From Sphingomonadales bacterium (lineage in GTDB: Bacteria > Bacteroidota > Bacteroidia > NS11-12g > UBA955): 49,696 bases of DNA. The notes beneath the pieces are model-generated. The model made no database searches and had not been told where the DNA came from. It was given only the letters and a program-made list of their open reading frames with translations. The stretch spans positions 1 through 49,696 of the forward strand of contig VHBA01000014.1 of the NCBI GenBank assembly GCA_016872175.1. Direction: 5' to 3'. Position 1 is the first letter of the stretch. Each line of letters begins with the position of its first letter. Below, in pieces: positions 3,835 through 27,733 of this stretch. Both the position numbers and the translations under genes were made by a program.

Positions 3835-6822
3835 TTAATATATGAAATTCCTTACGATATCAAAGGGGTCGTTCAGATCCAGTTTTACGCGGACAGTGGC
3901 ATATTCATACCACTTGAAAGTGGGATTTACATTTCTGAAATCTGAAAAGGTCTTGCTGTAAAACAGCGGCAGGGTAGCCTCAAAATTGGAACTTTTACCC
4001 ATTCTTGTTGAATAGCTCAAACCACCTGCGTAATGTATTTTTTCTGTTAGGTATGCTGAGAGCGGCACATAGGCTGCATCAAAAAAGATTTGAACCGGTA
4101 AAAATGGTAAAATATGACTGTTCATATTTACACCTGCCACCCATTTATCAGTATTCAGATTGGGAAACATCCGAATTCCATTTGCCCCATTCACCAACAT
4201 CTGGCTCCAGTAGCCATTTCCGGTGCCAAAACGTGCACTGCGCGCCACTGCCATGTGACTGAAGGTTGGGTCGTTGGGCGTAAACTGTGGCGCACTGATG
4301 GGCAATACAAAATTACCAGTGCTGCCACTGTAATTGTGAATCATACCCGATGCATAACCTTTGACCCTTAAACCAATATCTTTTTTTGATTTATTGGGAT
4401 AAGGCACATAGATTTCTGCCGTGGCATTTGCCATTAAAAATTTGCCGTATATCGGTCCGAAGGGTGTTCCAAATTGTGTTTTGGATCCAAACAGCCCATT
4501 ACCACCGCCCATGATATCAAGCCTTGTATTAAACGGCATCAGTTTTTTGCCTGATTCTCTTATCCATGAAATCCTTGCCACATCGGTTTCCCAGGTAGTT
4601 ACCGTCATAGAAACCAGTGTATCAAGTCTGACACGGGTCAGTTCTGTTTCCAGCCTGTTTAACACCCAGGATTTTGAAACCCTAAAATACTGGTTAACTT
4701 TAAATGCCCAGCGGTTATATATGGTGGGATTCCGGTAGGCATACATGGGCAAGAAGCTGAAACGGCGAAAGTTTAATCCAATCTCGGTGAGTGCAAATGG
4801 CCCGCTATGGTGAAAAATATTTCTGCGTAAACCCGCAAAACCCACCACTTCTTTGGACCTTAAGCCATAAAGCGGCGCAACCCAGTATTCCCAGTTGCGG
4901 CGGGGAAATGTTAGGCTTGAAAAGACTAGTCCGGGGGTGTAGCCATCGTGTTTGTTCCACATAAAGAACATGGGAAACACCCAGTGCCTGTTTTGTCCGC
5001 GTGTGTACAAACCGGGAAATCCGAATTTGCCTTTACCCCAGGTTTTGAGGATAGCCCGGCTTGTGGTGGCATCGTTATTGGCCATATTGCTTTCGGGCAA
5101 ATAGCCGCTGGCATTCAGCACAATCTCCTGCATTTTGCCTTTAAGTTCCACCGTGGTATCGGAATGCACCCATATGGTTTCCTTGCGGGTACCGTAGCGC
5201 CACTGCAGTTTAAAGGGCAGTTCGTACGGGGTTTTGTTGTTGATTTTTACCAAATATCCTGTTTTGGATTTATGCACCGACTGAACGGCCACATCAGGGG
5301 CAGGGCCGGAAAGTAATCCATCGAAAAACCAACCCAGTTTTTTGCCACTCACTTCTTCAAACGCAGCCTGAATGTCGGCCGGCAGGGGATGTTTATACTG
5401 CCACTTTCTGAAATAGGTTTTCATGCAACTGTCCATCACCGTGCGCCCCAGGTATTCCTGCAGATAGAGAAAACGCTGTGGGTTGATGGCATAAACTATG
5501 GCACCATAATTAACGCCGGTGTAACTGCGGCTGTGCAGGTGACCGCACTGAAACTGCCCCACATCGTGGGTGAGCCTATACGCTGCATAGTTGCTATTGG
5601 CAGAAAATTTGTCACCGGGTGAATATTCATCAGTGCCTTTGCCTTCGGCTTGCTGCTGGTAGAAGGTATTGATGCTTTCATCCATCCAGGGGTGTTGGCG
5701 CTCCTGGGAGCCCAGCATACCCTGAAACCAGTTGTGTCCCACTTCGTGAATAATAGTACCTTCGGAAGCATCTGCGCAAATGGTAATCATAGGATATTCC
5801 ATACCACCTGCACCTTGCAGGGGACCGATAACAACTGTGCAGTAGCGATACGGATATGAACCTACCCTGCCGGAATAGTATTGCAGGGCTTTATCTATAG
5901 CTGCCAGTATGGATGGACCATTTACTGTTTTCTTTGGTATGTAAAAAGCAAATGTTGTTACTTCAGCACCATTGGGCAAGCTAGTTTTGCCTTTAGCTAC
6001 TTCAAAATCAGGTTTGGCAAACCAGGCAAAGTCACTAACCTGCTTTTGCTTGTATGTAAGGTTTTTACGGCCTGTTCTTTCGGTTGTGTCGCGGCCGATT
6101 ACCAGAGAATCCAGCCAGGTAAATTCTTCAGCATTCTGCAACTCACCAGTGGCTGCTATGCGCCAGTTTGCAGGCACATCCAACGATACCTCATAATCGC
6201 CAAACTCGCTGTAATATTCGCCTTGTTCGGCGTAAGGAAATGCATTCCATCCATTCACATCATAAACGGCAGGTTTTGGATACCACTGGGTTATTGAAAA
6301 TAGGTCGCCGTTGCATCCCATGCGGCTGAACAGCCAGGGAATTTTTACCCGGAAAGGTGTAGCAATGGTGATTTTATCGCCCGTATTCAGTGTTTGCGGC
6401 AACCGCAGATACACAATATCAGGATTGACAGAATCTGCGGTGTAGACGGCAGAAATGCCATTTACCGTAAAGCTCAGACTGTCCAACGCGCCACGCTCTT
6501 CTTCGGTAGCATTAAAAAACTTTTTATTGCCATTGATGATGGACTCTTTTCCATAGGCGGTATGCCTTCCTGAAAAAGCGTTGGGCCAAATATGAAAGGG
6601 GATTCGGTAAATGGCATCAGGGCTGTTATTGGTATATGTAATGGTTTGAAAACACCGCAAAACCTTTTGTTTTTCAACCAATACAGCACGGATTTCATGA
6701 TCTACGCGCTGCTGCCAGGGAGTCTGATTTTTGGAAAGGCTGTTTTGGGCTGATGAAACAACCGGAAGAAAAGCCATTACCGCAGGTAAGAAATACCTCA
6801 CAGGGTTAAAAAAGGTGTGCAT
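3835..6822 (-). CDS. M1-family metallopeptidase with predicted outer-membrane beta-barrel C-terminus
   Basis: A 995-residue secreted protein. The N-terminus is a signal peptide ending near VVSSAQN. Residues about 45-560 form an M1 aminopeptidase-like unit: a GAMEN-like exopeptidase strand (GAGGMEYPMI) and the zinc site HEVGH followed 18 residues later by the third ligand in WMDESINTF. Both zinc histidines and the catalytic glutamate are present. From about residue 620 the sequence changes to aromatic-rich amphipathic strands and ends in NFIY, an aromatic terminus typical of outer-membrane barrels. The ATG at 6820-6822 is chosen because a start six codons upstream would lie inside the promoter -7 element. 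A surface-tethered peptidase is likely. The peptidase call is firm; the barrel is inferred. Confidence 0.9.
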   Translation of the reverse strand: MHTFFNPVRYFLPAVMAFLPVVSSAQNSLSKNQTPWQQRVDHEIRAVLVEKQKVLRCFQTITYTNNSPDAIYRIPFHIWPNAFSGRHTAYGKESIINGNKKFFNATEEERGALDSLSFTVNGISAVYTADSVNPDIVYLRLPQTLNTGDKITIATPFRVKIPWLFSRMGCNGDLFSITQWYPKPAVYDVNGWNAFPYAEQGEYYSEFGDYEVSLDVPANWRIAATGELQNAEEFTWLDSLVIGRDTTERTGRKNLTYKQKQVSDFAWFAKPDFEVAKGKTSLPNGAEVTTFAFYIPKKTVNGPSILAAIDKALQYYSGRVGSYPYRYCTVVIGPLQGAGGMEYPMITICADASEGTIIHEVGHNWFQGMLGSQERQHPWMDESINTFYQQQAEGKGTDEYSPGDKFSANSNYAAYRLTHDVGQFQCGHLHSRSYTGVNYGAIVYAINPQRFLYLQEYLGRTVMDSCMKTYFRKWQYKHPLPADIQAAFEEVSGKKLGWFFDGLLSGPAPDVAVQSVHKSKTGYLVKINNKTPYELPFKLQWRYGTRKETIWVHSDTTVELKGKMQEIVLNASGYLPESNMANNDATTSRAILKTWGKGKFGFPGLYTRGQNRHWVFPMFFMWNKHDGYTPGLVFSSLTFPRRNWEYWVAPLYGLRSKEVVGFAGLRRNIFHHSGPFALTEIGLNFRRFSFLPMYAYRNPTIYNRWAFKVNQYFRVSKSWVLNRLETELTRVRLDTLVSMTVTTWETDVARISWIRESGKKLMPFNTRLDIMGGGNGLFGSKTQFGTPFGPIYGKFLMANATAEIYVPYPNKSKKDIGLRVKGYASGMIHNYSGSTGNFVLPISAPQFTPNDPTFSHMAVARSARFGTGNGYWSQMLVNGANGIRMFPNLNTDKWVAGVNMNSHILPFLPVQIFFDAAYVPLSAYLTEKIHYAGGLSYSTRMGKSSNFEATLPLFYSKTFSDFRNVNPTFKWYEYATVRVKLDLNDPFDIVRNFIY

Positions 6823-6837
6823 TGTATACAAACTGTG

Positions 6838-6867
6838 CAAAAGTATAGGGGCTGTCTGTGAACCAAA
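6838..6867 (-). promoter_or_regulatory. Promoter of the M1 metallopeptidase gene
   Basis: On the minus strand TTTG (reverse of 6864-6867) is followed after 18 bases by TACTTTTG (6838-6845), a complete Bacteroidota promoter. It ends 15 bases before the ATG at 6822. It lies back to back with the promoter of the divergent TPR gene. Confidence 0.65.
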
Positions 6868-6892: not shown

Positions 6893-6900
6893 TATTTTTG
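6893..6900 (+). promoter_or_regulatory. -7 element of the TPR-comA unit
   Basis: TATTTTTG matches TAnnTTTG fully and ends 6 bases before the ATG at 6907. It shows that a possible TTG start at 6898 is promoter DNA, not coding. Confidence 0.5.
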
Positions 6901-6906
6901 ACGGCG

Positions 6907-8364
6907 ATGGGATTTTTTCCAAGTGATTGGGACGACGAAGAGCAGGAAGACTTCAGCGGCAACGTAGAAGAACTTGTCCGCGAATTCGAGTCAAACAAAG
7001 ACGCGACGTTCAGTCCGCGGGAGTTGCTGGAGATTTTTCGGTACTACTCCTACAACCAATTAATGACGAGCGACAGCAGTAAGGGATTCATGCTCATGAA
7101 AACCGTGCTGGAGCAGGGCATTGACCAGTTTCCATACATACCTGTTTTTGCCATACACATGGCAGAGGTGCTGATGCGGGAAAAAAATTACCGCATGGCG
7201 CGCCGATATATTGCCAAGGCCCGAGAATACAGCGCCTTTGAGCCTGCTTTGTTCATGGTTGATGCAGCCATATACGGACTGGAAGGCAGAAAAGACAAGG
7301 CCATGGAAATGCTGAAAGAAGGCATGGAACTGGCCGGTGAGGATGAGCAGGCCATGGAGGATTTCCTTGAGTTGCTGATTCATTACGGACAATTTGAACT
7401 GGCGCTGCCGGTGCTGGATAAATGCCTGGATCTGGGCGGAGACATCCATTACATTGTAGAGAAGTGGCTGGGACAGACACATGATAAGGCCAATGTTCGC
7501 GCTTTGCTGCCTATGTTGGAGCGGTTGGTAGACAAAGACCCTTACTCAGAAGAAGCGTGGTACCTGCTTGCCAATGCCTGTGCAGATTTGGAAGATTACC
7601 AACGCGCCATAGAAGCATTTGATTTTGCCATAACCATCAACGAGAATTTTCTGGAAGCCTGGCTGGGCTACATGGAGGCGCTATACGAGCATGAAGATTA
7701 CAAAACCTTCATAAAACATTATAAGGAGCAATCGGAACGATTTCACAAAGGTGCTTTTGATGAACTGAAAGGATTGCTGGCATGGAGCCATTATGAAACC
7801 GGTAAAGTAAAAGAAGCCAGAACCCTATATCACGAGGTGCTGAAAAGCAGCCCTGATGAAAGCGAAAGCTGGTATAGCATGGGCCTTACCTGGCACTACG
7901 AACAGGAATATGCGAAAGCCATTCCCTATCTGGAAAAAGCATGGGAACTGAACCCAACGGAAGCCGATTACGGAATCGTATTGGCAGCGGCCTATTTCGG
8001 AACCCATATGAATGAAAAATGGGAGCCCTTGTACGAAGTGTTGTCTGATGATTTTCCGAATGAAGATGAAGTATGGCTGGATTGGGGTGTGGCGTTACAC
8101 GAAACCGGACAATCGGACAGGGCGCTGGAAATAACCCAGGTGGGTATTAAGCACAATCCCGGCAATACAAAATTGCTTTACCGCATGGCGGCTTTGTGTT
8201 ACCTGACCGGACAACAGGCGGCTGCAATCTACTTATTGGAAACTGCCTTAGCTATTAACGCTGAAGAACATGTACAAATGTTTATTTTTGCACCGGAATT
8301 GAAAAAGGCCGGCAGTTTGCTCAGGTTAATTGCCAAATTTACCAATCCCGGACTGCAAACATGA
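6907..8364 (+). CDS. Cytoplasmic tetratricopeptide-repeat protein
   Basis: The 485-residue product has no signal peptide or membrane helix and begins MGFFPSDWDDEEQEDFSGNV, a very acidic start. From about residue 50 to the end it is a run of 34-residue TPR helix pairs; clear units are AWYLLANACADLEDYQRAIE, SWYSMGLTWHYEQEYAKAIP and KLLYRMAALCYLTGQQAAAI. TPR arrays bind partner proteins, so it is probably an adaptor. I cannot assign a specific role. Its last four bases overlap the start of the phosphosulfolactate-synthase gene, so the two are co-translated and may be linked in function. Confidence 0.88.
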   Translation: MGFFPSDWDDEEQEDFSGNVEELVREFESNKDATFSPRELLEIFRYYSYNQLMTSDSSKGFMLMKTVLEQGIDQFPYIPVFAIHMAEVLMREKNYRMARRYIAKAREYSAFEPALFMVDAAIYGLEGRKDKAMEMLKEGMELAGEDEQAMEDFLELLIHYGQFELALPVLDKCLDLGGDIHYIVEKWLGQTHDKANVRALLPMLERLVDKDPYSEEAWYLLANACADLEDYQRAIEAFDFAITINENFLEAWLGYMEALYEHEDYKTFIKHYKEQSERFHKGAFDELKGLLAWSHYETGKVKEARTLYHEVLKSSPDESESWYSMGLTWHYEQEYAKAIPYLEKAWELNPTEADYGIVLAAAYFGTHMNEKWEPLYEVLSDDFPNEDEVWLDWGVALHETGQSDRALEITQVGIKHNPGNTKLLYRMAALCYLTGQQAAAIYLLETALAINAEEHVQMFIFAPELKKAGSLLRLIAKFTNPGLQT

Positions 8365-9140
8365 ACCACGAATTATTTAACTTAGCCCAACTGCCCGAGC
8401 GCAGTTCAAAACCCCGTGAAAGTGGCCTAACCATGGTTATGGACAAAGGCTTGAGCCTCCGGGAAGCCGAAGACTTTCTCAGCAATGGTAGCACTTACAC
8501 AGATATAATCAAACTGGGATTTGGAACCAGTTTTGTGACACCAAAACTGCAGGATAAAATCAATCTTTATAAATCAGCGGGAATACCTGTGTATTTCGGC
8601 GGTACATTATTTGAGGCATACATAGTGCGCAATCAGTTTGATGACTTCCTGCGGTTATTGGATAAAACGGGTGTTGACTATGCTGAAGTGAGCGATGGCA
8701 GTATTGAAATGCATCATGACACCAAATGCGAATACATTCGCAAACTAGCCCAGTGGGGCACGGTACTGAGTGAGGTCGGCAGCAAGGATGCGGAAAAGAT
8801 TATCCCTCCCTACGAATGGATTGAACAGATGGAAAGTGAAATCAGTGCGGGTGTGTGGAAGGTGATTGCTGAAGCCAGGGAAAGCGGAACTGTTGGCATT
8901 TTCAGGGGTACCGGAGAAGTAAGGAGTGGCCTTGTAGCTGAAATTATCCGCAAAATTCCTTTGGAAAAGATCATCTGGGAAGCACCCTTAAAATCACAGC
9001 AGGTATGGTTTATTAAACTATATAGCGCCAATGTGAATCTGGGGAACATTGCACCCAATGAACTGATTGCACTGGAAACATTAAGACTCGGTTTGCGGGG
9101 CGATAGTTTTTTCTTTTTTCTTGACAACCCACCTGCATAA
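8361..9140 (+). CDS. comA: Phosphosulfolactate synthase (ComA) family protein
   Basis: A 259-residue TIM-barrel protein matching the ComA/YitD family, which adds sulfite to phosphoenolpyruvate to form (2R)-phosphosulfolactate. Family motifs appear in order: KPRESGLTMVMDKGLS, DIIKLGFGTSF, VYFGGTLFEAYI, YAEVSDGSIEM, LSEVGSKD and IWEAPLKSQQ. In methanogens the product feeds coenzyme M; in Bacillus spores it leads to sulfolactate. The role in Bacteroidota is not settled from sequence; sulfonate or sulfonolipid metabolism is a possibility only. The start codon lies in an ATGA overlap with the TPR gene. No phosphatase (comB) or dehydrogenase (comC) is adjacent. The family call is strong; the biological role is open. 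Confidence 0.88.
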   Translation: MNHELFNLAQLPERSSKPRESGLTMVMDKGLSLREAEDFLSNGSTYTDIIKLGFGTSFVTPKLQDKINLYKSAGIPVYFGGTLFEAYIVRNQFDDFLRLLDKTGVDYAEVSDGSIEMHHDTKCEYIRKLAQWGTVLSEVGSKDAEKIIPPYEWIEQMESEISAGVWKVIAEARESGTVGIFRGTGEVRSGLVAEIIRKIPLEKIIWEAPLKSQQVWFIKLYSANVNLGNIAPNELIALETLRLGLRGDSFFFFLDNPPA

Positions 9141-14732: not shown

Positions 14733-17700
14733 CTATTTTACAATCAGCTTATCGCTGAAGATGCCTTTGTCGGTTTGAATGGTAACACCATATACACCGG
14801 AAGGCAGATTGACGTTGAATTGGGCGCGGGTTGCATTGGGTGTAAGCAGCGCAACTTGTTTGCCGTCTATGGAGAATACCTCAACACGCTCCAACACATC
14901 TGAAGACCTGAAAAACACCGTACCTGAGGCAGGATTGGGGAACATGCGGATATTACCCAAAGCAAGACTGCGTGTAGAAGATGCTTCATTGTCCTTGATG
15001 ACCAGGGTAAGCACTGAATCTTTACCTGCTTCGCCGGGACCATTGATGTTGCGGATGCCAAACTTGAGGGTCTGCTGACCATCAGATTCGTTATCGTCAT
15101 TAATGTTGGCTTTACCGGAGAAGTAGCTGTTATTTTTAAGTACATTGATAGTGCGGCCGGTGAAATCGTAATCACGGGGTGAAACAGCTGTTCCACCGAT
15201 GGCTGCCACTGTAAAGCTGAAGTTTTCCTCTGTAGGCAACACTTCCAGTTCAAAACGGAAGCTATCTGCAAGTTCTGTGATGGTATCGGAAGGCTTTATG
15301 AAGTTTATTTGAGGTAAAGTAGCCTTAACAATGTCACCCAGATTTCTGGGAGTCAGGGTGTACCTGGCAGTGAATGGTGATGAATTGTCAAACTGCAGAC
15401 AAACACCGGTAATATTCAGATAACCCTGTGGCGCAGGAGTGCCATCAAGTTCTGTCTCTGCATCGATATTCAGCGAATCTAAGGTTCCGTCGGTATTCTG
15501 ATAACGCACATATTTAAATCCATTGGCAGTGAGGGCTGCAGTAGGCCATTCTGTGGGATCCACAAGTTTAACCCTGCGCACCTGTACAAGTTTGTTTTCT
15601 ATAGACTCCGTCATATCGTTCACAACTGCGGGTATCGGCAGACTGCGGTTCCCTGCAATTAGAATGATGGTATCCAACAGATCCATCTGTGCATTTCCCC
15701 AGAACTGACGAACAGATCCCTGAACGATTACAGAATCTCCGGTTTTTGGTGAATATCCAAGATTTTTTGCGGCTGAAAAAACCGCAATGCCACCTGTTTT
15801 GTCATGCATCACAAAATTAAGACCTGGATTGGCCCTGAGGTTGCCGGTCATAACAGTTCCTGTAACGCGGCATTTTACATTCAGAGAATCGGCTACCTGA
15901 TTGGCATTTTTTTGTGTGTTTATTTTGGCAATCGGGTAAAGAGGTAAATCATCGCTTACGATGCTAATCACAAAGGTGTCAGGACTCAATATTTTAGCAT
16001 TGGAAAGGTTTTCGATAACAAAAACTGCCTTTTCAGTGGGTTCGAAGTCAGTATCGTTGATAATTGGCACTTTAAACACAATCGTGTCAGGGGTGAATTC
16101 ATCTATGGTGGTAATAACAGCTGAACCAAAGGTATAATCAGTTCCATCAGTAGCGGAAGATATTGATGACACATCGCGGAGTGTAAAATCTGCAGAGGCA
16201 TCGGAGCGCGCAGCAACAACAACCTTTAATACTGCCTCCGGAGCTTTTTCAGAAACGGTCTGGGATTTTCCAGCAAACCTTATCTGGGCAGGTCCGTCAT
16301 TGTCTAACATAACCAGCGTAAACAGAGAATCCGCCAGGGTTGCGACACCGGAAATCTGGCGAACGCAAAGTATTACGGTGTCATTAGGGTCAATTTTAAA
16401 ATCATCAGTGATTTTTGAGAAGATGGTTATACTGTCAGCGCCGGTTGTTTTGCCAAGGGTAAATACAGAATCAGTTTTACTGCTGCCAAGCGAAAACTCG
16501 CCCGGGATAAGGGTACTGTCACCACGGTACTTAACAAATAGACGAATTTTGCTGTTGGTGGTAACTGCTTTGTCCAGCTTAATTTTCACACCCACCTTCA
16601 AGGCATTTTCTTTGACAACTACTTTAGTTGGGCCCAGTAAGATATTGGGAATGTCATCATCCTTGACACTCATGGTATGGGCTACTTCCGTGCCGATTAC
16701 GCAGTTAACAGCCTGATCAAGACGAACAACAATGGTTTCAGTATTTTCAGAAATATTATCGTTAATCAGCGTTATTTTGGTTGTATCTGTTGCCTGTGCA
16801 CCGGGATTGAATGTAATCGTCTTCGGCTCTGAAATGGTATAGTCAGTATTTTTTACAGCATCTCCACCAGCCACATACAGCCTTATAGTTTGCTTGTCAT
16901 CATTGCTGTACTTGCGAGTAACATACACCTGAGCTGTTCCTGCATTCTCAATTGTATTTGAGGTTCTTGCCCAAAATTCCACGAGCGGGGGCGTAAGTGC
17001 TGCATCATCCAGTCCGAGGCCAACAGCTGTCAAGCCGCCTTTGGGATTTACCGTGCTTTTGGCTTTTGGTCCCCAGACACCATCGGCATCATTATTGGCA
17101 TATACATCAAAACCTGTTTTAAAATCAAGGTTTGCGATTCTGCGTATTCCCTTGCTGTTGGTATTGGGCATTACTGCGCCCCAGTTGCCTGTTTTGGCAT
17201 TTACGCTATCTGTATAAAACGTGGCGCTGCTGGCAACGGTAAATCCTTCAGACTCCACGTAGGTAAGTGACAAAGGTCTGTCAATACCGGAAACATCACC
17301 ATAAGTTGCCACAAAATTACGTGCTTTTGCCATGCTTTTCCCCCAAATAGCTGTACAAAAGCTATCGCCTGTGTTTGAAGTATTAGAGAAAGCAAGCACC
17401 CTAACAGAATCGGAACAATACATGCGATGCGTGGTAGGGCCTGTTCCACCGCGTGCGGTAATTCCAAAATACACGTGCTTACCTGCAACAAACCGGGTAG
17501 CGTTGGCGGTATAAACAAAACCGAACCAGCCCTCATAGGCGCCGGTTTTGTCGGTGTAGAAAGTATCGATGGCAGCATTGGTAGTCCAAGTAACCGAACC
17601 AGCCGAATTGTATTTAAATCCGTTAGTATCAACAAGCATGGCATTGCCTGCACCTGCAAAATCTGTAGACAAGCCAAGATCCGAGGCAATCATACCACGG

Positions 17701-17888
17701 GTTGTGTATTGGTACATAGTACTTGGATCCAGACCTACAATTCTAAGCCTGCAAACTACAGGTAGGCGTGAAGTTCCACCTGAACCCATGTACTGAGGTA
17801 CTATGACCCCCTGAACTTTAGTCGAGGAATACTGCGCCGACAACTGCAGTGCGGCTGTAAGCAGCATAAATATGGTAATTTTTTTCAT
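14733..17888 (-). CDS. Large secreted Calx-beta-repeat protein with T9SS C-terminal sorting domain
   Basis: A 1051-residue secreted protein. It starts with a signal peptide (MKKITIFMLLTAALQLSAQY). Residues 20-290 form an unassigned N-terminal region. Calx-beta-type repeats follow at about 300-405, 410-530 and 535-650, each ending in an acidic NDN/DDD-E-E pattern such as LINDNISENTETIVVRL. Residues 660-850 look like an OB-fold domain (VKCRVTGTVMTGNL, GDSVIVQGSVRQFWGNAQM). One more beta domain precedes the terminal 75 residues, which match the Por/type A sorting signal (IRMFPNPASGTVFFRS to LPSGVYGVTIQ). It should cross the outer membrane by type IX secretion and be attached to the surface or released. 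Its ligand is unknown. It has its own promoter and terminator. Confidence 0.9.
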   Translation of the reverse strand: MKKITIFMLLTAALQLSAQYSSTKVQGVIVPQYMGSGGTSRLPVVCRLRIVGLDPSTMYQYTTRGMIASDLGLSTDFAGAGNAMLVDTNGFKYNSAGSVTWTTNAAIDTFYTDKTGAYEGWFGFVYTANATRFVAGKHVYFGITARGGTGPTTHRMYCSDSVRVLAFSNTSNTGDSFCTAIWGKSMAKARNFVATYGDVSGIDRPLSLTYVESEGFTVASSATFYTDSVNAKTGNWGAVMPNTNSKGIRRIANLDFKTGFDVYANNDADGVWGPKAKSTVNPKGGLTAVGLGLDDAALTPPLVEFWARTSNTIENAGTAQVYVTRKYSNDDKQTIRLYVAGGDAVKNTDYTISEPKTITFNPGAQATDTTKITLINDNISENTETIVVRLDQAVNCVIGTEVAHTMSVKDDDIPNILLGPTKVVVKENALKVGVKIKLDKAVTTNSKIRLFVKYRGDSTLIPGEFSLGSSKTDSVFTLGKTTGADSITIFSKITDDFKIDPNDTVILCVRQISGVATLADSLFTLVMLDNDGPAQIRFAGKSQTVSEKAPEAVLKVVVAARSDASADFTLRDVSSISSATDGTDYTFGSAVITTIDEFTPDTIVFKVPIINDTDFEPTEKAVFVIENLSNAKILSPDTFVISIVSDDLPLYPIAKINTQKNANQVADSLNVKCRVTGTVMTGNLRANPGLNFVMHDKTGGIAVFSAAKNLGYSPKTGDSVIVQGSVRQFWGNAQMDLLDTIILIAGNRSLPIPAVVNDMTESIENKLVQVRRVKLVDPTEWPTAALTANGFKYVRYQNTDGTLDSLNIDAETELDGTPAPQGYLNITGVCLQFDNSSPFTARYTLTPRNLGDIVKATLPQINFIKPSDTITELADSFRFELEVLPTEENFSFTVAAIGGTAVSPRDYDFTGRTINVLKNNSYFSGKANINDDNESDGQQTLKFGIRNINGPGEAGKDSVLTLVIKDNEASSTRSLALGNIRMFPNPASGTVFFRSSDVLERVEVFSIDGKQVALLTPNATRAQFNVNLPSGVYGVTIQTDKGIFSDKLIVK

Positions 17889-23305: not shown

Positions 23306-24652
23306 TTACTGTGGCCACAATTCAAGTGCATCGAAAAGTGAACCCGCGCCGGGTGCATTTTTGTTAGCATTGATTTCGTCCTGTGGAACCAGAAAACGCT
23401 GGGGCAGCTGGGTGCCTTTATTAGGTGCTACACCAATCTCGTTCTTGGTTCTGCGAAGGTCGCACCAGGGTTCAATCTGGCCGTACAGAGAAACGTATTT
23501 CTCAGTAAGAATTTCCTTGCTGATTGCACCGTTTACAGTGGTGCCGGGAACCATTTGTCCGGGACCAAAATCACCGATTACGTAGTCATCATATTGTCCG
23601 CCAATGTTGGCAGCATTGTCTGAACGCACGTTATTCAGGTGATCGATGGCTGTGGTGGCATCATTATTTCTGATGGCACATTCGGCAAGAATGAGTTCAT
23701 TCTCCACGTAAGATACGATTGGGAAATTTGCTGTTGCGCCGAAAATTCCATCCCAATTAGGATCCAGAGGTGTGTATCCTGCATCGGTGAAATAGTAGGT
23801 ATAACGGTCTGATTCATCAGTCTTTGCATTGTTGCGGAAGAATGCAGAAGAATCGAGCAGCTTTTCCATGTGAGAACCACTGGCTGAAATGTAACCTGAA
23901 CGGTTCCAGTCAAGGAAGTCATAGTAAAGGTTCCATGCACCGGGTGTTGCCTGGCTGTGGTTGGCAAGCAGATCCTTGCCGGCAGCAATTCCATTGGCAG
24001 CGGCGGCAGCAGCTTTGGGGTAGTCCTTCATGTGCAGATAAGCACGCGCCCTTAGGGTGTTGGCTACCTGAGCCCAGTTGTGGTTGCCCACATAAGCACC
24101 GCTGTAATTGGCGTGGTTTGCACCATAAGCCAACGCTGAATCCAGCAGGGTAATAGCAGCATTGTGAACCGCAGTCATTTTGTCGAACTTGGGACTGGTA
24201 ACACCATCTACACAGGCTTCTGTGTTGGGTATGTCACCCCAAAGTGCTGATGCGGTAAGCAACAGGTTTGCCTCGGTAATGCAAGCCACAGCATTCAGTT
24301 GCTTGTTATTGGCTTTGGCGGCCTTCGCACGAATAATGCGGCACTGCGCAATACCTTCGGTGTAAATATTGCCCCAGGGGGTGTTAAAATCGCCGGCGGT
24401 TACTACGTAGTCATTGTATGACACAAACTGACGGTCAAATCCCACATGATGACCGGCAAATATGCCTGCCATACGTGCGGCTTCGCCTTCGTTTACGAGC
24501 ACGTTAGCCAACTGGGCACCCGACATCATCAGCACAGGATCTGAGTCGCTGAACTGGCCGGGATTTTCCTTATTGATTTCCTTGATGTCCTTTTTGCAGG
24601 AAGTAAGTCCTACGGTCAGGGCAACGGAAAAGATTAAAGCTATCTTTTTCAT
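23306..24652 (-). CDS. SusD/RagB-family outer-membrane lipoprotein (SusD-like_2 type)
   Basis: A 448-residue lipoprotein that should sit as the lid on the SusC-type barrel encoded just upstream and capture its ligand. The signal peptide ends in LTSCKK. The helical TPR-like core is seen in the NTLRARAYLHMKDYPKAAAA segment, and the C-terminal half carries YVENELILAECAIRNNDATT and AIDHLNNVRSDN, characteristic of SusD-like proteins. The order (SusC first, SusD 21 bases later) is standard. The ligand is not known: no glycoside hydrolase, sigma/anti-sigma pair or hybrid regulator lies beside the pair. Confidence 0.93.
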   Translation of the reverse strand: MKKIALIFSVALTVGLTSCKKDIKEINKENPGQFSDSDPVLMMSGAQLANVLVNEGEAARMAGIFAGHHVGFDRQFVSYNDYVVTAGDFNTPWGNIYTEGIAQCRIIRAKAAKANNKQLNAVACITEANLLLTASALWGDIPNTEACVDGVTSPKFDKMTAVHNAAITLLDSALAYGANHANYSGAYVGNHNWAQVANTLRARAYLHMKDYPKAAAAAANGIAAGKDLLANHSQATPGAWNLYYDFLDWNRSGYISASGSHMEKLLDSSAFFRNNAKTDESDRYTYYFTDAGYTPLDPNWDGIFGATANFPIVSYVENELILAECAIRNNDATTAIDHLNNVRSDNAANIGGQYDDYVIGDFGPGQMVPGTTVNGAISKEILTEKYVSLYGQIEPWCDLRRTKNEIGVAPNKGTQLPQRFLVPQDEINANKNAPGAGSLFDALELWPQ

Positions 24653-24673
24653 GTTATAATTCCTTGTAATTTA

Positions 24674-27600
24674 TTAGAGGTTAAACTTAATGTTGAACAG
24701 GTATGACTTTGTTCCGGGGTTGTTAAAGTAATCCAGACCGCGGCCATTTGAAACACCGGTAAGGTTGGTTTCGGGATCAACACCATCAAACTTGGTCCAC
24801 AGAGCCAGGTTTCTGCCGGTGAAACCAACAGAGATTCCGCCGGGTACGTGAACGGCATCAGAAATAGACTTAGGCAGTGCATAAGACAGGCTGAGTTCGC
24901 GGATACGGGTCCATGAAGCGTCTTTAATGAACTGCTCAGCAACTGAACCGAAACCGCCACCCAGGCTGGTATACCAGTACTGGTTCAACCAAACGTTGCC
25001 TGCACCAAAGTCTTTCAGGCTGCCACGGGCAGTGATGCTTCCGTCGGCATTAATAACTGCAAGACCATTAGCACCGGCAGCAGCAGCAGAAGCCAGGGTA
25101 ACACCGCGATAATCCACGATATTGGCTGCGTCTGCAGCTGAAACAGTAAAATCAGAAGCAGATTCAGGGGTGATACCAAAATTGTTCAATACGCCATAAG
25201 TACCGGCCCACATGTCATTACCCTGACAGGTTTCAACCAGCAGGTTGAAATTCAGGTTTTTGTAGTTACCATTCAAACCTACGCTACCTCTGTAGTCAGG
25301 GTTGGGGTCACCGATTACGCCTTCTTCAGAAGAAGCAGTGGGGAAGCCGTCTGCATCAAGCACCAGCTTGCCTGATTCGTCTTTGGCCCATTTTCCACCC
25401 CACAATGAACCCATTGCCTTACCTTCAACAGCGCGTGATGAAGTACCGGTGAAACCGGCCAGGAAGATGGGAGCAGCACCGCTAAGATTATCAACAGTGT
25501 TGCGGTTGCGGCCCAGGTTGCCATACAGATTCAGGTTGAAGTTTTCTGATTTAATCAGATTAACATTCAGGTCTATTTCAAGTCCTTTGTTTGAAAGGTC
25601 AGCAGCGTTTTTCCACTGGTTAGAGTAACCGGTTGAATTAGCCACAGCAATGGCCAGTACAGCACCTTCAATCTTGTTCTGATAATAGGTAACGCCAAGA
25701 GAAACTTTGTTTTTGAACAGTTTCACATCAGCACCCAGTTCAGTTTCAGTCTTCATTTCAGGCTTGATATCAGGGTTGCCCTGGGTAGAACTTCTGTAGA
25801 TAGATCCACCATACAGAGAACCATCTAGGTAATCGCCCCAACCGGAAGATGAACCGGCAGCTACGAAATTGGTGTTCCAGATGTAAGCGGGAGGAGCAAC
25901 ACCTACACGACCCATAGACATACGAAGTTTAGCATAGCTAAGTACATCATTTGGCTTAAGGTCTTTGGTGAGTTCATATGCCAAGCTTGCACTGGGAGAG
26001 AAGAAGCGATTCGCATAGGTAGAAGATGCTTCAGAAGCACCGGTCAATTGCAGGAAGATTTTGTCTTTAACATCAAAATCCAAAACGCCGTATACACGGT
26101 TGTTCAGCAACTCAGAGAACGAGTTGAATGGGTCTTTATTTTCGGTAGTAGAATTGATGAATGCAAAACGATCCTGGTCGCGAATGATGAACTGAGAAGC
26201 AGAACCACCAATATTATAAATATTCTTATAGGTATAGAGATAACCCACAGTTGAGTTCAGGTTGATATCGCTGCCCAACTTGTGTGTACCTTGGTTGATA
26301 AAGTGCAAGCTGGTTTCTGATTCCTGAATATGATCATCAGTAAATGAACCGTTTGCCTGACTTCCGGCTGAGTTTACAGGGAAATAGGTAATACGGCGGT
26401 CAGTAGACATATCATGACCCAAACGGGCAATCAGCTTGTGGTTGTCGTGCCACTTGTAGGTAGCTTCAGGTGTAAGGATAAAGCGGGTTACATCTGAAGT
26501 ATTGGTTTGTTCATTAAGTGTCCAACCTGGATTGTTATAGGTAGGAGCGGCGTTACCCAGGTAACGGCGATAACCTCTGTGCGCATTAAAGCTGGGAACA
26601 CCTGCAGCGGTATAGTACGTTCCTTTATAGTCAGAGTTATCAAAGTCGGGAGAAGTACGCAGGTAGCCCAGGTACAGACCGTCCAGATTTGAACCCATTT
26701 GCACACGGTTAGAAACAGTTTTTGCCATATTGGCGTTCAGGCCAATGGTAAGCTTGTCATTTACACTCTGGCTGAAGTTCAAACGGGCAGTGGTTCTTCT
26801 GTAATCTGACAAACCTCTCATAATGCCCTGCTGATTCCAGTCACTCAGTGAGAAGAACATGTTGCTCTTGTCGTTTCCGGCTGAAATAGAAAGGTTGTTG
26901 TTCCAGGTGATACCGTTGCGGAAAACCTGGTCGCGGTTTTGGTCGTTATAAACAGTTTTATTACCTTTTCTTACGATGGTTCCGTAAACAGTTCCGTCAT
27001 CGGCAACAAACTTTGCTCCGGCAGTATTAATGCTGTCTTTGCCATTACGCAGGGCAATCTGGTCACCCCAGGAATTGGCGTTATTGGCAACCCAGCGGCC
27101 ACCTGAACCCTGACCATATTTACCTTGCTTTTCGTACTCACGGTTAACCTGGTCGATGGCGTAGGTTGAAGAGAATTCAATACTCATACCACGCTTTCCT
27201 TTTTTGGTGGTAACAACAATAACGCCGTTAGCCGCTCTGGTTCCCCAAACAGCAGCAGCAGCAGCACCTTTCAGCACTTCCACCGACTCAATGTCTGAAG
27301 GGTTAAGGTCATTCAAGCGCGATTGCTGAACAACACCGTCGGTTCCCCCGCCGAAGCTGGAGTTGCTTACCGGAATACCATCCACAATAATCAGAGGCTG
27401 GTTGCTACCGGTGATGGTATTTTGGCCCCGGATTTGGATGTAAGCACCTGCGCCCGGATCGCCCGCAGAACGGGTAATCTGTACGTTGGATGCTTTACCA
27501 GTTAATGCCTGAATCACACCGCTTTCGCCGGATGATACGAGGCCTTTTCCTTGAACTTGAGAAACTGAATAGCCGATTTTCCGCACATTTTTGGTAGTAC

Positions 27601-27733
27601 CAATGGCAGTAACGGTAACAGTTCCAACGTCCACAGTGTCACTGCCGGAGCTTCCGCCCGGTCCTGCCTGAGCAAAGGCCGCAGGGGCGATGCTAGAGGC
27701 CGAAATGACCATGAGTAAATGTTTCATTCTCAT
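24674..27733 (-). CDS. SusC/RagA-family TonB-dependent outer-membrane transporter
   Basis: A 1019-residue TonB-dependent receptor. After a signal peptide (ending AAFAQ) and a glycine/serine spacer comes a TonB-box-like stretch, VDVGTVTVTAIG, then the plug domain (VIQALTGKASNVQITR, IRGQNTITGSNQPLIIVDGI, IESVEVLKGAAAAAVWG, NGVIVVTTKKGKRG). The last about 800 residues are barrel strands ending in SYLFNIKFNL. The carboxypeptidase-regulatory-like domain of about 80 residues that most SusC proteins carry before the plug is missing. It works with the SusD-like lipoprotein downstream to import an unknown ligand using TonB energy. Start ATG at 27733 or two codons later. Confidence 0.95.
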   Translation of the reverse strand: MRMKHLLMVISASSIAPAAFAQAGPGGSSGSDTVDVGTVTVTAIGTTKNVRKIGYSVSQVQGKGLVSSGESGVIQALTGKASNVQITRSAGDPGAGAYIQIRGQNTITGSNQPLIIVDGIPVSNSSFGGGTDGVVQQSRLNDLNPSDIESVEVLKGAAAAAVWGTRAANGVIVVTTKKGKRGMSIEFSSTYAIDQVNREYEKQGKYGQGSGGRWVANNANSWGDQIALRNGKDSINTAGAKFVADDGTVYGTIVRKGNKTVYNDQNRDQVFRNGITWNNNLSISAGNDKSNMFFSLSDWNQQGIMRGLSDYRRTTARLNFSQSVNDKLTIGLNANMAKTVSNRVQMGSNLDGLYLGYLRTSPDFDNSDYKGTYYTAAGVPSFNAHRGYRRYLGNAAPTYNNPGWTLNEQTNTSDVTRFILTPEATYKWHDNHKLIARLGHDMSTDRRITYFPVNSAGSQANGSFTDDHIQESETSLHFINQGTHKLGSDINLNSTVGYLYTYKNIYNIGGSASQFIIRDQDRFAFINSTTENKDPFNSFSELLNNRVYGVLDFDVKDKIFLQLTGASEASSTYANRFFSPSASLAYELTKDLKPNDVLSYAKLRMSMGRVGVAPPAYIWNTNFVAAGSSSGWGDYLDGSLYGGSIYRSSTQGNPDIKPEMKTETELGADVKLFKNKVSLGVTYYQNKIEGAVLAIAVANSTGYSNQWKNAADLSNKGLEIDLNVNLIKSENFNLNLYGNLGRNRNTVDNLSGAAPIFLAGFTGTSSRAVEGKAMGSLWGGKWAKDESGKLVLDADGFPTASSEEGVIGDPNPDYRGSVGLNGNYKNLNFNLLVETCQGNDMWAGTYGVLNNFGITPESASDFTVSAADAANIVDYRGVTLASAAAAGANGLAVINADGSITARGSLKDFGAGNVWLNQYWYTSLGGGFGSVAEQFIKDASWTRIRELSLSYALPKSISDAVHVPGGISVGFTGRNLALWTKFDGVDPETNLTGVSNGRGLDYFNNPGTKSYLFNIKFNL

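Follow-up and report, generated by a model that had tools for sequence, protein, structure and literature searches.

The closest described counterparts of the protein characterized here are the patatin-like Omp85 proteins of type Vd such as PlpD, which combine an N-terminal enzyme with a C-terminal Omp85-type barrel, as is predicted for the present protein. The enzyme domain of PlpD is located exclusively in the periplasm, according to the accessible part of the corresponding study (PMC11116518). Ten Omp85/TpsB subfamilies were distinguished by Heinz and Lithgow in 2014 in a survey that includes POTRA-less architectures, and none of them is described with an M1 domain in the accessible text (PMC4104836). 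The same text, as far as accessible, calls the Omp85 'Metallo' subfamily a metalloprotease; it rests on PF00149 and resembles the protein described here in that an N-terminal domain of catalytic type precedes a barrel of the Omp85 kind, which in our case is a prediction (PMC4104836). A further family, the DUF5686 (PF18939) proteins of Bacteroidota, carries a related barrel behind an N-terminal part that differs from that of the present protein, as judged by the DUF5686 Pfam model; no paper was found that names DUF5686 together with 'outer membrane'. With PlpD, an enzyme-bearing Omp85-like barrel is already known, and the M1 peptidase as the enzyme is the new part. No report of an M1 peptidase fused to an Omp85-like barrel was found, as judged by titles and abstract openings with few subscription papers covered, so that an earlier report is possible.

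In the window, i.e. the complete 49,696-nt stretch of DNA that was analyzed, the protein is encoded by a real open reading frame on the minus strand. The longest frame extends from 3835 to 6840 and yields 1001 aa from a TTG start at 6840 or 995 aa from the ATG at 6822. Residue numbers refer to the 995-aa form, as in the coordinates of the first-pass annotation. An overview of the features is given in Table 1. The N-terminus resembles a signal peptide, the translation shows no lipobox cysteine in residues 1-26 upon inspection, and residues 8-24 form a helix at low pLDDT in the AlphaFold2 model.

Table 1 Features of the M1 gene and its predicted product (window coordinates; residues of the 995-aa form)
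Feature	Residues	Position	Strand	Basis or remark
Whole gene		3835..6822	minus	995 aa from ATG 6822; stop codon 3835-3837
Signal-peptide-like N-terminus	1-26	6745..6822	minus	hydrophobic stretch ending ...VVSSAQ; by inspection
M1 N-terminal beta domain and thermolysin-like catalytic domain	36-505	5308..6717	minus	PF01433; VIA-align
GGMEYP	339-344	5791..5808	minus	G340-M341-E342-Y343-P344 invariant in 22 rows; counterpart of GGMENP of leukotriene A4 hydrolase
HEVGH-X18-E zinc site	359-382	5677..5748	minus	H359, E360, H363, E382 invariant in 22 rows
Conserved Tyr	Y444	5491..5493	minus	invariant in 22 rows; aligned with Tyr of VPYEKG of leukotriene A4 hydrolase
Small all-beta domain	511-569	5116..5292	minus	links catalytic part and barrel; position of M1 domain III; AlphaFold2
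Predicted outer-membrane beta-barrel	597-985	3868..5034	minus	Omp85/DUF5686-like via sister clades
Low-confidence stretch of 64 residues	830-893	4144..4335	minus	12 strand elements before, 5 after; invariant D851, R861
C-terminal tail	986-995	3838..3867	minus	modelled mostly as helix; ends in Tyr

A Pfam scan of the 1001-aa form identified Peptidase_M1 (PF01433) as the sole domain, with 43.7 bits against a cut-off of 27.7 and an E-value of 3.1e-11. The protein thus carries an M1 metallopeptidase and not the patatin lipase of PlpD. It also differs from the 'Metallo' subfamily, whose domain is PF00149, which we take to be the calcineurin-like metallophosphoesterase family. Catalytic motifs were compared in an alignment of 22 rows, comprising the window protein and 21 relatives drawn from 33 loci; partial, tandem and catalytic-only loci were left out. 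The HEXXH-X18-E zinc site, already described as complete in the first-pass annotation, is invariant in all four of its residues, and Y439 is invariant across these rows like Y444. By profile and catalytic motifs, the window protein is a member of peptidase family M1. The roles of GGME and the conserved Tyr are known from M1 enzymes, in which both are exopeptidase features; the counterpart of Y444 in leukotriene A4 hydrolase is presumably the proton donor.

The catalytic fold, the zinc site, GGME and the Tyr are common to the window protein and to soluble M1 enzymes, namely leukotriene A4 hydrolase, the cold-active aminopeptidase 3cia, tricorn factor F3 and PepN. In a structure comparison of the M1 part with VIA-align, Z scores of 31.5 to tricorn interacting factor F3 and 30.2 to ERAP1 were obtained. 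Differences are found at single positions. Tyr replaces the Asn that follows GxME in leukotriene A4 hydrolase. In addition, M1 enzymes usually bind the amine of the substrate through a second acidic residue (E121 in PepN). The corresponding position is apparently occupied by Tyr or Phe in the 22-row alignment (TQWY or TQWF), and loss of this acidic residue could alter specificity. The original estimate of about 560 residues for the enzyme part agrees with the model, in which the catalytic part extends to about residue 505 and a small beta domain follows to about residue 569. This domain is helix-free in the model, hence not POTRA-like, and no POTRA was seen. In contrast to PlpD, the predicted barrel is preceded by a small all-beta domain without POTRA; PF01103 is unmatched in the window protein and was reported for no protein scanned by Pfam.

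M1 enzymes usually carry a helical C-terminal domain. In the window protein, the place of this domain is taken by the predicted barrel. AlphaFold2 was run on the 22-sequence alignment (pLDDT 82.7, pTM 0.82); a single-sequence run reached a pLDDT of 33.4 and was of no use as a model. Between residues 597 and 979 the model contains 17 strand elements. Of these, 14 are 9-15 residues long and the other three span just 4-5; several barrel stretches have a pLDDT of 45-70. Short helices are located at residues 871-874, 957-965, 971-974 and 986-994. The proposal that the last 370 or so residues are barrel-like is supported by a C-terminal part that is mostly strand, and only its length has to be corrected to nearly 400 residues (597-995). 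The chain does end in an aromatic residue, as had been pointed out, which speaks weakly for a barrel: the end is modelled as a helix, and a terminal F, Y or W is found in only 27 of the 54 distinct C-termini of the window family. Omp85 barrels follow the order of 11 strands, a loop and 5 strands. If the first short strand (597-601) is set aside, the model would show the same order in our reading.

These data bear on the possibility that the protein is a soluble periplasmic or cytoplasmic M1 enzyme whose C-terminus forms a beta-sandwich or a helical domain. Such an enzyme would conform to the usual M1 layout, and the hydrophobic alternation of strands does not discriminate, since 14 C-terminal and 13 N-terminal strands were not separated by it (0.68 vs 0.70, p 0.47). 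In the full-protein structure prediction, however, the soluble beta-sandwich or ARM domain named at the outset as a refutation did not appear and the C-terminal part is without a helical domain. As the profiles also relate the sister clades to Omp85 and the family to the DUF5686 barrel, a soluble enzyme is very improbable.

To classify the barrel, 75 distinct M1 genes with long C-termini were grouped by BLAST into a cluster of 54 (A54, including the window protein) and one of 21. The latter was split by eye on the C-terminal ends into B17, which includes a paralogue from the window's own genome (L054), and B4 (L280, L290, L292 and L293). In the M1 tree B4 forms one clade and B17 does not. Direct searches with the C-termini returned chance-level matches at most. 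Pfam on 22 C-termini with E up to 10 gave three of these (DUF5858, PWI and SUV3_C) and no barrel; the C-terminal profile gave two against solved structures, and one B4 C-terminus gave none. The Foldseek and VIA-align matches listed are M1 enzymes and barely cover the C-terminal part, so that the absence of Omp85 among them is uninformative.

Profiles of the C-termini were compared with each other and with clusters of Omp85 (58 members), FadL (17), PorP (17), Porin_O_P (25) and DUF5686 (30); clusters with fewer than three members were dropped, and all hhalign values are pairwise and uncalibrated. The three sets are mutually homologous, with profile probabilities of 97.1% for A54-B17 and 98.2% for both A54-B4 and B17-B4. 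B4 matches Omp85 with a probability of 97.3% (score 88.2, E 2.6e-11, 219 columns) and B17 with 87.3% (score 54.8). The match of A54 to Omp85 is weak (22.4%, score 36.4) and lies near the barrel background, though above decoys. Two smaller Omp85 clusters scored up to 24.0 against A54, B17 and B4, and one scored 34.2 against an earlier, partly redundant A set. DUF5686 is the strongest known-family match of A54 (80.9%) and of A and B together (94.8% over 278 columns); B17 and B4 reach 73.9% and 80.0% with it. FadL, PorP/SprF and Porin_O_P remained at scores of at most 25.2 and probabilities below 2% against A54, B17 and B4. The DUF5686 barrel (loci L222-L251) is itself somewhat Omp85-like, with a score of 40.5 to the main Omp85 cluster.

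As a control, reversed-and-rotated profiles were used as decoys. None of 50 matched the observed score in the comparisons of A54, B17, B4 and A+B with Omp85 and with DUF5686. This null is lenient, as four of six control pairs also scored above all 50 decoys, namely FadL-Omp85 (20.3), FadL-DUF5686 (33.2), PorP-DUF5686 (21.4) and Porin_O_P-DUF5686 (24.4), the exceptions being PorP-Omp85 and Porin_O_P-Omp85. Only scores of at least 47 were counted because background scores reach 39.4 (FadL against reversed PorP) and 43.2 (one Omp85 set against its own reverse); the score of A54 to Omp85 alone does not count. At the level of sequence profiles, the C-terminus is shown to be homologous to the DUF5686 barrel and, in the two sister clades, to the Omp85 barrel. 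For the window clade the link to Omp85 is transitive, since its own Omp85 match is weak and the sister clades match directly.

Motifs in the loop region point in the same direction. GGGLNIRG in the B set and FAGGTADPRR in B4 precede the last strands and align with or near the GG...RGY of Omp85 loop 6. It is suggestive that residues 830-893 may, in our reading, occupy the place of Omp85 loop L6; in clade A, the invariant D851 and R861 would then be what drift has left of the loop-6 motif, which is suggestive only. Alternatively, the C-terminus could be an ordinary outer-membrane barrel of another kind that serves as a mere anchor, its likeness to Omp85 reflecting general barrel similarity. The weak direct score of the window clade, the lenient null and the scores of 33-39 that unlike barrel families reach against each other are in line with this. 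We regard it as unlikely in view of the Omp85 scores of the two sister clades, which clearly exceed those of FadL, PorP/SprF and Porin_O_P, and of an alignment that is collinear around the loop-6 region. Pfam, the model and the sister-clade Omp85 matches agree with the initial proposal that an enzyme of the M1 type is joined to what is probably an outer-membrane barrel; the relationship to Omp85 and DUF5686 and the spread within the phylum are additions to it.

The reading we prefer, with a probability of roughly 0.65, is an outer-membrane-anchored M1 metallopeptidase, i.e. a periplasmic enzyme on a POTRA-less, divergent Omp85-superfamily barrel that most likely trims peptides. A Sec signal would direct the chain to the periplasm, where BAM would insert the C-terminal part into the outer membrane to form this barrel, with about 16 strands. 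The M1 enzyme at the N-terminus would stay in the periplasm at the barrel mouth and, on the inner side of the outer membrane, trim short peptides supplied either by import via TonB-dependent importers or by envelope turnover. Barrel closure, outer-membrane location and periplasmic orientation are what we infer for the window protein; peptide trimming as substrate and role is a guess, considered the likeliest because of the exopeptidase motif.

In even-stranded barrels both ends are periplasmic. A periplasm-facing enzyme is favoured over a surface-facing one because an even strand number would put both barrel ends in the periplasm and, by analogy, because of the PlpD precedent. The opposite orientation appears improbable. 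It would have the M1 domain exported through the barrel, the mechanism originally suggested for type Vd autotransporters, so that the enzyme acts on extracellular peptides. Omp85 relatives such as FhaC do translocate proteins, and PlpD was first read likewise, according to the accessible text of the 2014 survey (PMC4104836). That reading of PlpD has been overturned in favour of a periplasmic enzyme domain, as far as the accessible part of the later study goes (PMC11116518). Furthermore, export would require a zinc enzyme of about 500 residues to cross in its folded state, and the genome offers a type IX-type route, given its PorP/SprF matches and a window-encoded protein that carries a sorting tail.

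The architecture is found beyond the window. Its nearest relatives among named genomes are from Flavobacteriales or Bacteroidetes metagenome genomes, with up to 82% identity. Some M1 match is present in all 39 genomes searched, including the window's own, if any M1 relative is counted. When 25 related genomes were searched with the barrel profile, 20 of them gave matches, at 21 places in total; 18 of these places are in open frames of 994-1127 aa. The remaining three are a 373-aa frame in G033, a remnant in the same-genus genome G004, in which the gene is broken, and a weak match in a 537-aa frame (G033:C14, E 0.004). The 373-aa frame (L160) starts directly after a stop codon, and an apparent piece of the same gene was seen by eye upstream in another frame; this barrel-only frame has probably decayed. 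No clear intact barrel-only gene was seen with the barrel profile among the 25 related genomes. Across the phylum, at least 26 of 118 genomes have an M1 frame of at least 920 aa, a length that alone is no proof of a barrel.

The paralogue in the window's genome (G000:C9:40650-43820; L054 1151-4321) encodes 1057 aa with DGMEYP and the C-terminus ...FRWVLGVNKTF, and its M1 part is 30% identical to that of the window protein. Many related genomes contain similar frames, with lengths of about 1050-1110 aa. In Chitinophagaceae, a 523-aa barrel-less M1 gene adjoins the barrel-bearing one at four loci (L020, L021, L022 and L032; 5.9-10.4 kb). A quick tree of 112 of the 115 M1 frames, which gave long-branch warnings, was used only to see how barrel-bearing and barrel-less rows interleave. 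A and B4 together form one side (support 96) with six barrel-less rows inside, one of which (L059) looks broken, and the B rows are interleaved with 31 barrel-less rows. Given the homology between the barrels of A, B and B4, an old fusion followed by repeated loss of the barrel would explain these sequence data most simply.

The genomic neighborhood is partly conserved. A divergent TPR gene adjoins the M1 gene in 14 of 28 loci, some of which have short flanks, and a homologue of ComA (phosphosulfolactate synthase) is encoded beyond the TPR gene in 13 of the 28. In the window both are located at 6898-9140, and their position next to the M1 gene is conserved in distant Bacteroidota; one may guess at a connection with the metabolism of sulfonolipids or sulfolactate. 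In 6 of 28 loci the M1 gene is followed by genes for a lipocalin-like protein and a LysE-type exporter, in one of them at some distance. In the window, these two are encoded on the strand of the M1 gene with gaps of 26 and 2 bases, which makes one transcript of the three genes plausible.

TPR proteins are common partners in assembly machines. Together with the Omp85-like barrel, the adjacent TPR gene would be compatible with envelope quality control, in which misassembled outer-membrane proteins are degraded or trimmed by the M1 enzyme while an assembly-related role is retained by the barrel. We consider this role rather improbable: the exopeptidase GGME and Tyr are retained, the break in G004 shows the gene to be non-essential there, and some of the TPR matches, with identities as low as 20%, may reflect generic repeats.

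Some other genes of the window were noted as well. A SusD-like lipoprotein and a TonB-dependent receptor are encoded as a pair at 23306-27733 and likely form a nutrient importer. The product of 14733-17888 contains Calx-beta, DUF5689 and Por_Secre_tail sorting domains and is likely a type IX secretion substrate. In the 340-aa frame at 1255-2277, similarity to methylmalonyl-CoA epimerase begins only at residue 211, and the frame overlaps with the oppositely oriented IscS gene; its true start is probably well downstream. PADLOC gave no match.

Tentatively, the family may add to the ten subfamilies of 2014 another kind of protein of the Omp85 superfamily that is spread through Bacteroidota, with the M1 domain replacing POTRA at the periplasmic barrel mouth and the barrel or its lateral seam perhaps serving as a substrate route. 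If the preferred reading of an anchored periplasmic peptidase is right, outer-membrane anchoring would apply to a whole branch of enzymes in Bacteroidota that are recognized only as M1 peptidases by profile libraries. The Omp85 superfamily would then gain a peptidase-bearing member without POTRA domains. This would bear on the processing of peptides at the outer membrane of Bacteroidota, and on whether Omp85-type barrels have roles other than assembly and translocation, which PlpD has made a question again.
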